Shown: positions 12,988-33,587 of the stretch, piece after piece
Position numbering within the stretch: the first letter of the stretch is position 1
Layout: each line of letters opens with the position of its first letter
NCBI GenBank assembly: GCA_024278975.1
Contig: JAJRSD010000032.1
Location: 1-33,587, forward strand
Reading direction: 5' to 3'
Length of the DNA stretch: 33,587 bases
From: Bacteroidota bacterium
GTDB taxonomy: Bacteria; Bacteroidota; Bacteroidia; Bacteroidales; Prolixibacteraceae
Notes under the pieces: generated by a model
What the model was told of the DNA's origin: nothing
What the model saw: only the letters and a program-made list of their open reading frames with translations
Databases searched by the model: none
Made by a program: the position numbers and the translations under genes

Positions 12988-13048
12988 ACGGATGAAACTT
13001 AAATTAGGAAGTGGTTTTAAACAGTAAGTTCGAATCTTACCTTCCGTA
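12988..13048 (+). pseudogene. tRNA remnant lacking the anticodon arm (tRNA-Trp position)
   Basis: The ends are tRNA-like: ACGGATG pairs with CTTCCGT (one mismatch) as an acceptor stem, and GTAAG/CTTAC with loop TTCGAAT is a perfect T-arm. ACTT/AAGT can form a D-stem. Between the D-stem and T-stem only 11 nt (GGTTTTAAACA) remain where about 21-22 are needed, so there is no anticodon arm and no decoding triplet. In related genomes a tRNA-Trp usually occupies the tuf-secE gap, so this is probably its decayed or internally deleted copy. It could still be recognised by RNase P and serve as a processing mark. Confidence 0.65.
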
Positions 13049-31897: not shown

Positions 31898-33220
31898 CTA
31901 TTTCTTAAACTGAAACCAGTCTAACTCAAAAAGGTCCTCATCTTTTCCATGAAATGATAACCAAACAGCATGAATATTATCTGTTTTTTCAATTTTGCCC
32001 GAAACTATTTCCCAGATATTTTTTTCGCTTGCAGGAATATTTATCCATCCGATTTGTTTTCCCCATGGCTGATTTAAATGAATGGAGACAGCACCTCCGT
32101 TTTTTAATGATTTTACGTTGAGTTCAATCTTTTCGACACCATCTTTAAAATCGATATATTTATATGCTGCTTTATCTGAATTTTTAATTCCTCCCAACTC
32201 CTCATTTCCTGGCTCGAACAGTTGAATTCTGGTGTTCCCGAAAAGCAAGCAAGCGCGTTCTGCCTCAATTTTACCAAAAGCATTTAATGCCGGCCCAGCT
32301 CCCTGCGAAGTCATTTCTGCTTCGATAATTGTACCATCATCATTAAAAAATATGGGTTCAACACATGCCTTTCGCATCATTTGACTATTGTGTGTCGAGC
32401 GATGATAAAATACATACCACTGACCGTTAAACTCTGCAATCGACCCATGATTATTCCACGTATCTGGGTCGCAGTGTGCATTATCGACAATTACACCACC
32501 ATATTTAAATGGGCCCAATGGCGAATCACTCATTGCATAACCAATAGAAGTTGGGCGATTTGCACGACTAATATCGGCATAAACAAAATAATAAATACCG
32601 TTTCGTTTGGTCATAAAACCACCTTCGTGGAAAAAATGTTCTTTTTCGGTAACTAAATTTGTAATGATGGTTGAGGTGTCAATTTCTGTCATGTTGGGTT
32701 TTAGTTTTGCAATTTTCGCTTCAAACTGCCCCCACATATAATATATTTCACCATCATCGTCAATAAAAACAGATGGGTCGATCTCCTCAATTCCGGTAAG
32801 TTGCATTTTTTTTCCGTTTACAAACGGGCCGGTTGGCGATTTGCTGGTTGCAACTCCCTCTGCAGCAGTATTGTCGGGTTGACAATAATACATGTAATAT
32901 GTACCATCTTTAAACATACAATCGGGGGCAAAAAGTAATTTATCAGAATAAGAAATCTGGTCGTTTTCTCCTTTCGATGAAAATACATTTTCGGTGATTT
33001 CCCAATTTATCATGTCGGAGGTTGACATAATATGATGCCGGTACGAGCAGTAGTAATCTGCACTCTCATCAACCGAGACGTAAAGATAAAGTTTGCCATC
33101 GTTCCAAACGTGCGCCGACGGATCGGCAATATACATTCCGGCTGGTATTATTGGATTTTGTGAAAAACAAAAAGTTGAGAGAATTAAAAAGGGAATGAGT
33201 AAAAGTAATATTTTTTTCAT
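31898..33220 (-). CDS. Secreted glycoside hydrolase family 43 with C-terminal CBM6-like domain
   Basis: A 440-residue secreted enzyme of the GH43 five-bladed propeller type (arabinofuranosidase/xylosidase). A signal peptide (residues 1-20) precedes QNPIIPAG. The three catalytic carboxylates are readable: Asp33 in ADPSAHVW (base), Asp148 in IDPSVFID (pKa modulator) and Glu199 in FFHEGGFM (acid). HGS (258-260) and the FYHRST strand are also typical. From about residue 315 the chain changes to a beta-sandwich (FGKIEAERACL, then GGAVSIHLNQPWGKQIGW) that looks like a CBM6. No SusCD or regulator genes are nearby, so it is not visibly part of a polysaccharide locus. The specificity is not decidable. 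Confidence 0.85.
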   Translation of the reverse strand: MKKILLLLIPFLILSTFCFSQNPIIPAGMYIADPSAHVWNDGKLYLYVSVDESADYYCSYRHHIMSTSDMINWEITENVFSSKGENDQISYSDKLLFAPDCMFKDGTYYMYYCQPDNTAAEGVATSKSPTGPFVNGKKMQLTGIEEIDPSVFIDDDGEIYYMWGQFEAKIAKLKPNMTEIDTSTIITNLVTEKEHFFHEGGFMTKRNGIYYFVYADISRANRPTSIGYAMSDSPLGPFKYGGVIVDNAHCDPDTWNNHGSIAEFNGQWYVFYHRSTHNSQMMRKACVEPIFFNDDGTIIEAEMTSQGAGPALNAFGKIEAERACLLFGNTRIQLFEPGNEELGGIKNSDKAAYKYIDFKDGVEKIELNVKSLKNGGAVSIHLNQPWGKQIGWINIPASEKNIWEIVSGKIEKTDNIHAVWLSFHGKDEDLFELDWFQFKK

Positions 33221-33296
33221 CCTAAAAATTGATTAATAAATTTTACCCCGGTAACACTCGTTTTAAGGTTTTCGAAGTTTAGTTTTAGAAAATATG

Positions 33297-33371
33297 TGGG
33301 ACATACTGGATTCGAACCAGTGACTTCTACCCTGTCAAGGTAACACTCTAAACCAACTGAGTTAATGTCCC
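33297..33371 (-). tRNA. tRNA-Val(GAC)
   Basis: Read on the minus strand it starts GGGACATTAACTCAGTTGG and ends ATGTCCC plus discriminator A. All arms form: acceptor GGGACAT/ATGTCCC, D-stem ACTC/GAGT, anticodon stem TTACC/GGTAG with loop TTGACAG (anticodon GAC; plus-strand 33334-33336), and T-stem ACTGG/CCAGT with loop TTCGAAT. It is 75 nt without CCA. A -7 box lies 7 bp upstream. It is the intact source copy for the truncated repeats to its right. Confidence 0.93.
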
Positions 33372-33378
33372 AAAATGT

Positions 33379-33386
33379 CAAATATA
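33379..33386 (-). promoter_or_regulatory. -7 box of tRNA-Val
   Basis: On the minus strand this is TATATTTG, a full TAnnTTTG match, 7 bp before the tRNA 5' end. Identical copies occur at 33472-33479 and 33564-33571 in front of the two truncated tRNA copies. Confidence 0.65.
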
Positions 33387-33403
33387 AATAATTGTAAAAA
33401 AAA

Positions 33404-33464
33404 CCTGCGACTTCAACCCTGTCATCCGTCGGTTGACGGACTAAACCAACTGAGTTAATGTCCC
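33404..33464 (-). pseudogene. Truncated tRNA-Val copy 1 with inserted hairpin
   Basis: It keeps the tRNA 5' end, D-arm and anticodon triplet region and stops at the T-stem (minus-strand ...GTCGCAGG), lacking the T-loop and 3' acceptor. Ten nt of the tRNA (plus 33338-33347) are replaced by TCCGTCGGTTGACGGA (33425-33440), a 6-bp perfect stem with a GGTT loop, so the anticodon stem cannot form. It cannot be a functional tRNA. Confidence 0.85.
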
Positions 33465-33495
33465 AAAATGTCAAATATAAATAATTGTAAAAAAA

Positions 33496-33556
33496 CCAGC
33501 GACTTCCACCCTGTCATCCGTCGGCTGACGGACTAAACCAACTGAGTTAATGTCCC
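33496..33556 (-). pseudogene. Truncated tRNA-Val copy 2 with inserted hairpin
   Basis: Same build and length as copy 1. The substitute hairpin is TCCGTCGGCTGACGGA (33517-33532), which differs from copy 1 only in the loop. The junction with the next leader is CCAG followed by A residues on the plus strand, closer to the parent tRNA (CCAG) than copy 1 (CCTG). Confidence 0.85.
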
Positions 33557-33587
33557 AAAATGTCAAATATAAATAATTGTAAAAAAA

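Follow-up and report, generated by a model that had tools for sequence, protein, structure and literature searches.

The tandem array of broken tRNA copies next to tRNA-Val(GAC) at the right end of the window (by which we mean the whole stretch of DNA analysed, 33,587 nucleotides from a member of the Prolixibacteraceae) is probably a scar, expanded in tandem and without an ORF, that was left by a homing-type GIY-YIG element; such elements would insert into tRNA genes and supply a rescue tRNA. In relatives it can be seen directly that the host tRNA gene is split, that a matching empty site exists, that a replacement tRNA is present and that the same site carries the hairpin in many species; in the window the locus is in an ORF-less state. 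The origin of the hairpin, the cleavage and the transfer are parts of the model that we infer from comparison of sequences.

According to this model, the array derives from a very small mobile element. In relatives its full form is a single-domain GIY-YIG gene of some 80 codons accompanied by a complete tRNA of the same kind as the one invaded. There it sits inside the host tRNA-Val(GAC) gene, which is split, with 10 nt at the junction of D-stem and anticodon stem gone and a 16-bp palindrome at the break, and the cell would rely on the element-borne tRNA. The nuclease would cut a naive tRNA gene near the anticodon, and the donor element would be copied into the break together with its spare tRNA, the tRNA halves acting as homology arms (homing). 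The hairpin would mark the break and make the occupied allele uncuttable, in some cases together with a changed anticodon stem of the rescue tRNA. Repeated cutting or unequal recombination may have generated the tandem array, and in the genome of the window the nuclease ORF would have disappeared from the Val-GAC locus, leaving units composed of tRNA 5′ half, hairpin, remnant and spacer that multiplied before the intact tRNA.

The tRNA-Val(GAC) array in the window

The window is contig C37 of an assembly of 4.65 Mb over 115 contigs. An intact tRNA-Val(GAC) gene (33296..33371, minus strand; called by ARAGORN, RF00005 64.8 bits) forms the final member of the array and is its functional copy. Upstream of it, to the right in the window, stand the repeated units, for which Tandem Repeats Finder gives a period of 92, 2.6 copies and 96% matches at 33348-33587. 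In the alignment each unit matches nt 1-24 of the tRNA, continues with a 16-nt hairpin and matches again from nt 35; therefore exactly 10 nt (nt 25-34) are missing. These 10 nt (AGTGTTACCT on the minus strand, 33338..33347 in the intact gene; junction 24|35) are absent from both window units; according to the bracket structure, they run from the 3′ end of the D-stem across the junction nucleotide and along the 5′ strand of the anticodon stem as far as the loop.

In unit 1, tRNA nt 1-24 (33441..33464, minus strand) are identical to the intact tRNA. They are followed by the hairpin TCCGTC-GGTT-GACGGA (33425..33440, loop GGTT on the plus strand), by a tRNA remnant reaching from the anticodon loop (nt 35) to the 5′ strand of the T-stem (33404..33424, minus strand), and by a spacer from the T-stem break to the 5′ end of the next tRNA (33372..33403, minus strand), which contains a T-run and then TATATTTG. 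We take the latter to resemble a Bacteroidota promoter element, as a candidate only. Unit 2 is built likewise, with tRNA nt 1-24 at 33533..33556 (minus strand), the hairpin TCCGTC-GGCT-GACGGA at 33517..33532 (loop GGCT on the plus strand) and the remnant from nt 35 to the T-stem at 33496..33516 (minus strand). The copies in the window thus break off in the T-stem and pass into a T-run on the minus strand and a short spacer. The pattern TCCGTC-NNNN-GACGGA occurs twice in the window and in 0 of 100 shuffles.

The right end of the window falls within the array. The spacer of a third unit (33557..33587, minus strand) runs into the contig end, and the array resumes in contig C76 (1 to ~297), which starts inside the array and whose first 141 nt are identical to the end of the window. 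From this overlap it follows that the array has at least four units, located between a putative NCS2-type permease gene (read by eye) and the intact tRNA. The position of the array, at the end of C37 and again at the start of C76, could point to an assembly artefact at a contig end. This is scarcely credible, given the single-unit scar at the same locus in a relative (G020) and, in other genomes, longer arrays that lie within a large or the only contig; assembly uncertainty concerns the number of units only.

These results agree with most of what the sequence-only reading had described, namely 92-bp tandem units beside an intact tRNA-Val(GAC), 10 tRNA nucleotides exactly swapped for a 16-nt hairpin in both units, a constant stem (TCCGTC/GACGGA) with a variable loop, and an array extending past the window. 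Its assignment of the lost 10 nt to the 5′ anticodon-stem strand and the junction was correct as far as it went; the 3′ end of the D-stem has to be added. Its suggestion of an unrecognised structured-RNA array gained little. A functional array of this kind, in which every unit would have a promoter and a T-run of its own and act as a decoy derived from the tRNA or as a small RNA, is highly improbable: each unit does contain a TATATTTG-like element and a T-run, and unit 1 folds better than shuffled sequences (z -3.0), but the value for unit 2 is only -0.7, G020 holds one unit only and 18 of the 33 same-genus loci compared hold none. Moreover, Rfam reports nothing but the intact tRNA above threshold at 32800-33587, and no family covers the 92-bp unit.

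No nuclease ORF was seen at the Val-GAC locus of the window, and the link between the array and a nuclease therefore rests on relatives.

Two further stretches of the window gave matches below the Rfam cut-offs. An HPnc0260 match at 33172-33332 (plus strand; 37.1 bits, cut-off 59) is probably due to chance. A degenerate tRNA-like stretch at 12988-13048 (plus strand; RF00005 28.7 bits, cut-off 29; without ARAGORN call) has a tuf-like gene on one side and a short secE-like ORF on the other. Judging from the usual gene order, we presume that it may be a dead tRNA-Trp; an intact tRNA-Trp(CCA) sits on contig C36.

The Val-GAC locus in same-genus relatives

The comparison of orthologous tRNA-Val loci with and without the array, proposed by the sequence-only reading, was made for 33 same-genus loci (26 from a first comparison, six added genomes and the window; outside this set are G001, G012 and G026, in which the stretch examined contains no Val-GAC gene, and G023). 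A hairpin scar is present at the same Val-GAC site in 15 of them, the window included. This is the opposite of a random decay of tRNA copies with no conserved hairpin, the outcome which that reading had named as speaking against it. The scars of G006 and G007 have a one-base variant of the hairpin or junction, and the junctions of G033 are changed. The units are located upstream of the intact tRNA in the window and downstream of it in G009 and G019.

An open GIY-YIG ORF accompanies the hairpin at Val-GAC in nine genomes (G002, G004, G009, G010, G018, G019, G021, G022 and G028); in G009, G019 and G022 the nuclease ORFs adjoin hairpin-marked tRNA copies or are enclosed by them. In five genomes a different, intact tRNA-Val is flanked by the two halves of the host tRNA gene. 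In G002 and G010 the 5′ half lies upstream and the 3′ half downstream; together they enclose two nuclease ORFs and a different tRNA-Val(GAC), and hairpins are found at the breaks. In G021 the gene is likewise split, with a single ORF and another allele of the tRNA; G028 has both halves with an ORF and a third allele, and G033 both halves with an apparently decayed ORF. Scar, replacement tRNA and ORF are also present in G004 and G018, where the 3′ half is not obvious. G018 (Maribellus sp. YY47) and G028 (Draconibacterium sp.) both belong to the Prolixibacteraceae by NCBI ranks and to the genus of the window by tool placement. The stretches examined at Val-GAC in G006, G007, G020 and G029 contain no nuclease motif; like the window, these loci have the scar and an intact tRNA.

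The empty site was obtained by aligning G002 minus its insert with the naive locus of G008. The two align across the permease end, the leader, both tRNA halves and the trailer, with AGCATTACCT as the sole gap within the tRNA and point changes and small indels in the flanks.

The intact tRNA has an altered anticodon stem in 8 of the 14 occupied loci with a visible tRNA, compared with 1 of the 18 loci without a scar. The altered stem reads AACGCATGCT instead of AGCATTACCT or AGTGTTACCT in G002, G004, G006, G010, G018, G028, G029 and G033; a similar one, AATACATGCT, is present in G031, where no scar was seen. The 10-nt core is unaltered in the intact tRNA of the window, G009, G019, G020 and G021, and has one changed base in G007, so that a recoded rescue tRNA is not general.

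Of 395 genomes sampled across the class, only that of the window itself matched the Val-GAC scar pattern, no other genome of its family being in the sample; a scar in initiator-type tRNA-Met was found in 7 of the 395. A different palindrome, CTTGCCTGCCGTCAGGCAGG, is nested in the D-loop of a dead tRNA-Val 5′ half in G021 (locus L054, about 1442-1461).

The GIY-YIG nuclease and scars at other tRNA genes

The nuclease is a single GIY-YIG domain of about 80 codons. All 12 ORFs of alignment A1, taken from relatives and from the Arg-CCT locus of the window's own genome, match PF01541, and residues Y6, Y17, G19, R27, H31 and E63 are invariant in the nuclease alignment. Among solved structures, UPF0213 proteins and the structure-specific nuclease SLX1 come closest. 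Between species the nuclease is under purifying selection, with dN/dS values of 0.04-0.14 (computable in 10 of 13 pairs). ORF copies within array L073 differ by few changes, with pN about equal to pS and no sign of constraint. No group I or group II intron fold was found: at the gathering threshold Rfam reports tRNA only in six element loci and in the window at 32800-33587.

Proximity to tRNA genes was scored for 30 nuclease loci among the matches listed in 16 same-genus genomes. All 20 loci with E <= 1.7e-25 have an ARAGORN call within 800 bp, versus 2 of the 10 weaker ones; 19 of the 20 have a typed tRNA, and one has hairpin-bearing '???' copies only. Likewise, each of 13 further stretches chosen by hand (12 around nuclease ORFs, including some loci already counted, and one around scars in G120) contains a tRNA, Val, Pro, Arg, Met, Asp, Leu, His, Ala and Gly being among those represented. 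At L349 (G009:C4:3731700-3735400) six tandem GIY-YIG copies lie by tRNA-His with a period of ~446 bp and a palindrome, TCGGGACGACCTCCCGA, in each unit.

Within the window's own genome, 7 of the 29 tRNA loci examined (33 genes exceed the Rfam cut-off) have a partial copy that is broken by, or ends at, a palindrome: Val-GAC, Val-TAC, Met(CAT) on C108, Arg-CCT, initiator-type Met(CAT) on C17, Ser-GCT and Tyr. The end of C77 contains two copies of a Gly-GCC-type 5′ half in which tRNA sequence is replaced in the same way, and short partial matches at Phe and Gln are hard to interpret. An open 80-codon GIY-YIG ORF follows the broken copy at Arg-CCT and overlaps the intact tRNA-Arg(CCT) with its end. 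Separately, a tandem pair of identical tRNA-Asp(GTC) genes was noted at G000:C87:34822-35000.

Beyond the genus, the genome collection yielded 294 relatives, and the best 80 of these gave the 79 loci that we analysed; L277 and L282 among them are in fact the same-genus G018 and G028. A tRNA lies within 400 bp of the nuclease, always on the same strand, at 54 loci, and 48 of these 54 contain a partial match to the neighbouring tRNA within 700 bp; a few such matches are other intact tRNAs nearby (e.g. L265). The tRNA-adjoining relatives occur in Bacteroidota, Ignavibacteria, Balneolia and CPR, and two layouts recur: broken copy, ORF, intact tRNA, or intact tRNA, ORF, broken copy. Outside Bacteroidota, a Dehalococcoidia MAG (L267) has a GIY-YIG ORF by tRNA-Val(GAC) and a copy marked by TCCCGATTTCATCGGGA. 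At L361 (G120:C4:180000-182000) an initiator-type tRNA-Met is followed by three hairpin-marked partial copies ~368 bp apart, with a nuclease-like coding sequence between the partial copies as judged by eye.

The loss of tRNA sequence differs with the palindrome. Copies with TCCG-type hairpins have lost 10 nt in 19 of 21 two-sided cases, the others having lost 11 and 7 nt, the latter in an ambiguous alignment (counted by hand, with tandem copies taken singly and two compound inserts of L275 excluded). Copies with CCTGCC-type palindromes have mostly lost 0-2 nt, and those with TCCCGAT-type palindromes 17-19 nt in most rows and 9 and 13 in two. Arg, elongator-type Met and Ser copies have other inserts, often palindromic, mostly with little or no loss, and outside the genus 26 of 50 two-sided rows have no perfect 6-bp stem. 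The nuclease tree follows the tRNA target across host families, requiring 36 label changes compared with 62.2 after shuffling (0 of 200 as low); the tree is based on 78 columns, 45 of its 88 inner branches are open, kinship of the hosts was not removed and near-copies favour clustering.

These data bear on a rival explanation, an ordinary partial tandem duplication of the tRNA to which template switching added the hairpin, with no mobile element involved. Bacterial tRNA sets do change by tandem duplication, as an eLife paper of 2020 reportedly describes, and the units are 96% alike and therefore young, as such a duplication would have it. We nevertheless judge it improbable. The same hairpin and 10-nt loss are found at the same site in other species, also in the genome's own Gly-GCC-type copy and, elsewhere along the tRNA, in those of initiator type from other families. 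In addition, the split host gene holds a foreign tRNA and a nuclease, and the empty-site comparison strongly disfavours duplication.

Dispersed hairpins and known mobile elements

The window's own genome contains 26 matches to the 16-nt hairpin pattern (0 to the reversed control); by our reading, 10 of these are in tRNA copies and 16 elsewhere. Fifteen same-genus genomes contain 1 to 45 hairpins each, with 0 or 1 in the reversed control, and in the contexts read the hairpins are mostly singlets, not paired. An inverted repeat of at least 5 bp flanks 14 of 40 distinct non-tRNA sites (from 89, minus 12 tRNA-like sites and near-duplicates); when flanks were re-paired in 1000 shuffles, the proportion averaged 3.9% and never exceeded 20%. 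In a broader set of 79 sites distinct by their flanks the proportion is 43%, versus 5.4% for re-paired flanks and 3.8% for random positions. Several host repeats exist in two forms, one with a 7-nt loop and one in which the hairpin replaces the loop; for example, GATGCTGAA-ATAAATT-CAGCATGAC has counterparts in which the same arms stand around TCCGTCAGCTGACGGA.

Hairpins number 11-45 in the 12 genomes in which a nuclease match reaches about E 1e-20 or better, and 1, 2, 2 and 22 in the four without such a match (one-sided Mann-Whitney p 0.014, kinship not removed). The genome with 22 (G007) has one nuclease match only, which is weak and stop-bearing. Hairpin and nuclease numbers are weakly correlated (Spearman 0.44, p 0.09, kinship not removed). 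Y1 transposases are present in all 16 genomes, but their number is uncorrelated with that of the hairpins (Spearman 0.15, p 0.58), and a RAYT/Y1 enzyme was set aside as a likely mover of the hairpin.

A second hairpin family, CCCGAT..ATCGGG, was set aside as a widely dispersed one: it gave only 3-6 forward matches per genome in four genomes, many at tRNAs, and the end letters of the pattern lose sites. At terminator L139 / L194 and its orthologues, beside a gene that we take to be rpsP, several species have the same TCCGTC stem with differing loops and others have unrelated hairpins; with related but drifting hairpins among the species, it was rejected as a clean empty site.

Since the hairpin is found at many non-tRNA places, it need not belong to the nuclease. 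An independent tiny mobile palindrome might land in hairpin loops, the nuclease only duplicating tRNA segments and the spare copies collecting palindromes. We consider this rather unlikely, although several observations argue for it: the 16 of 26 own-genome copies away from tRNA copies, the excess of flanking inverted repeats at non-tRNA sites, the host repeats known in both forms, and the presence of other palindromes (CCTGCC..GGCAGG, TCCCGAT..ATCGGGA) in other tRNA copies as well as the one nested in G021. However, the near-constant 10-nt loss suits a single tRNA-tied mechanism better than random landing, and hairpins are more numerous in genomes with a strong nuclease match, with the reservation about kinship given above, and do not track Y1 transposases. 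The terminator series, with gradual change rather than clean insertion, fits either reading poorly. The sequence-only reading had suggested a palindromic element that targets tRNA hairpins and whose product was amplified. A dispersed palindrome family enriched at the apices of inverted repeats, together with palindromes that interrupt tRNA copies in several phyla, gives that part partial support; the GIY-YIG gene and replacement tRNA of the fuller loci were missing from it.

The homing-type element that we favour has its closest parallels in phages. Free-standing GIY-YIG homing endonucleases are known from T-even phages (PMC13096335, PMC2988022), and one of them, SegB of phage T6, is described in PMC13096335 as cutting inside tRNA genes and as required for segmental amplification of a tRNA gene. 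The loci analysed here resemble those of SegB-type enzymes in having a GIY-YIG gene in or beside tRNA genes. They differ in being chromosomal, in encoding a bare catalytic domain of ~80 aa inside a split host tRNA gene, and in having a replacement tRNA and palindromes at the breaks. A phage origin was considered and rejected, a scan of viral contigs having given three weak relatives only. As regards the hallmarks of homing endonucleases, a nuclease of the superfamily is present in relatives and at Arg-CCT in the window's own genome (not in the window array), and the site is intact in naive alleles.

Prophages, ICEs and satellites use tRNA genes as attB and restore the tRNA. As with such elements, the insertion here is in a tRNA gene and leaves the cell with a working tRNA and a broken piece; tRNA fragments are discussed for tRNA-integrating elements in PMC9897764. 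In contrast to them, the ORF lists of two example loci (L065 and L066), inspected by eye, contain no site-specific recombinase or integrase, the insertion is near the anticodon, 10 nt are lost and a palindrome is gained, and a whole replacement tRNA is present rather than a restored 3′ end.

Short dispersed hairpin-forming palindromes are also known as REPINs or REPs, which go with RAYT transposases (PMC3116915). Unlike these, the hairpins described here are 16-nt singlets by our reading, lie at the apices of other inverted repeats and vary in number independently of Y1 transposases. Mitochondrial GC clusters and double-hairpin elements are tiny mobile palindromes (PMC4478555). Short target duplications are reported for GC clusters, and PMC4478555 mentions a proposed role of intron endonucleases in their mobility. 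In the present case, by contrast, the palindrome takes the place of a loop or of 10 nt, and the tRNA targets have a nuclease gene next to them. The SDR elements of cyanobacteria are reportedly tiny mobile palindromes too (Elhai 2008). The rtT repeats of E. coli tyrT are tandem repeats of a tRNA 3′ end located downstream of the tRNA; they resemble the array in being tandem repeats of part of a tRNA beside that tRNA, and differ from it in that the units here contain the 5′ half, lie upstream and include a hairpin, with tRNA as the only Rfam family above threshold.

Chromosomal elements of this kind were not described among the matches listed in a search of open PMC papers, with subscription papers and preprints outside its range, and the available portions of PMC1564403, PMC9897764 and PMC10714607 contain no description of them.

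A broader proposal, which we regard as possible while stopping short of calling it likely, is that the elements constitute a natural form of 'home-and-rescue' selfish DNA. Minimal GIY-YIG elements would destroy a tRNA gene, substitute their own, often recoded copy and seal the breaks by a palindrome, and the nuclease may also seed the palindrome into hairpin loops throughout the genome. Such a class would have members in both Bacteroidota and CPR and would account for the replacement of tRNA alleles.

If true, these would be among the smallest self-spreading chromosomal elements known to us, and they would attack tRNA genes while carrying the antidote as a foreign or recoded tRNA, as a natural counterpart of cleave-and-rescue designs. 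They would also offer a mechanism by which tRNA alleles of one species come to replace those of another, and a way to study how very short palindromes get into hairpin loops.
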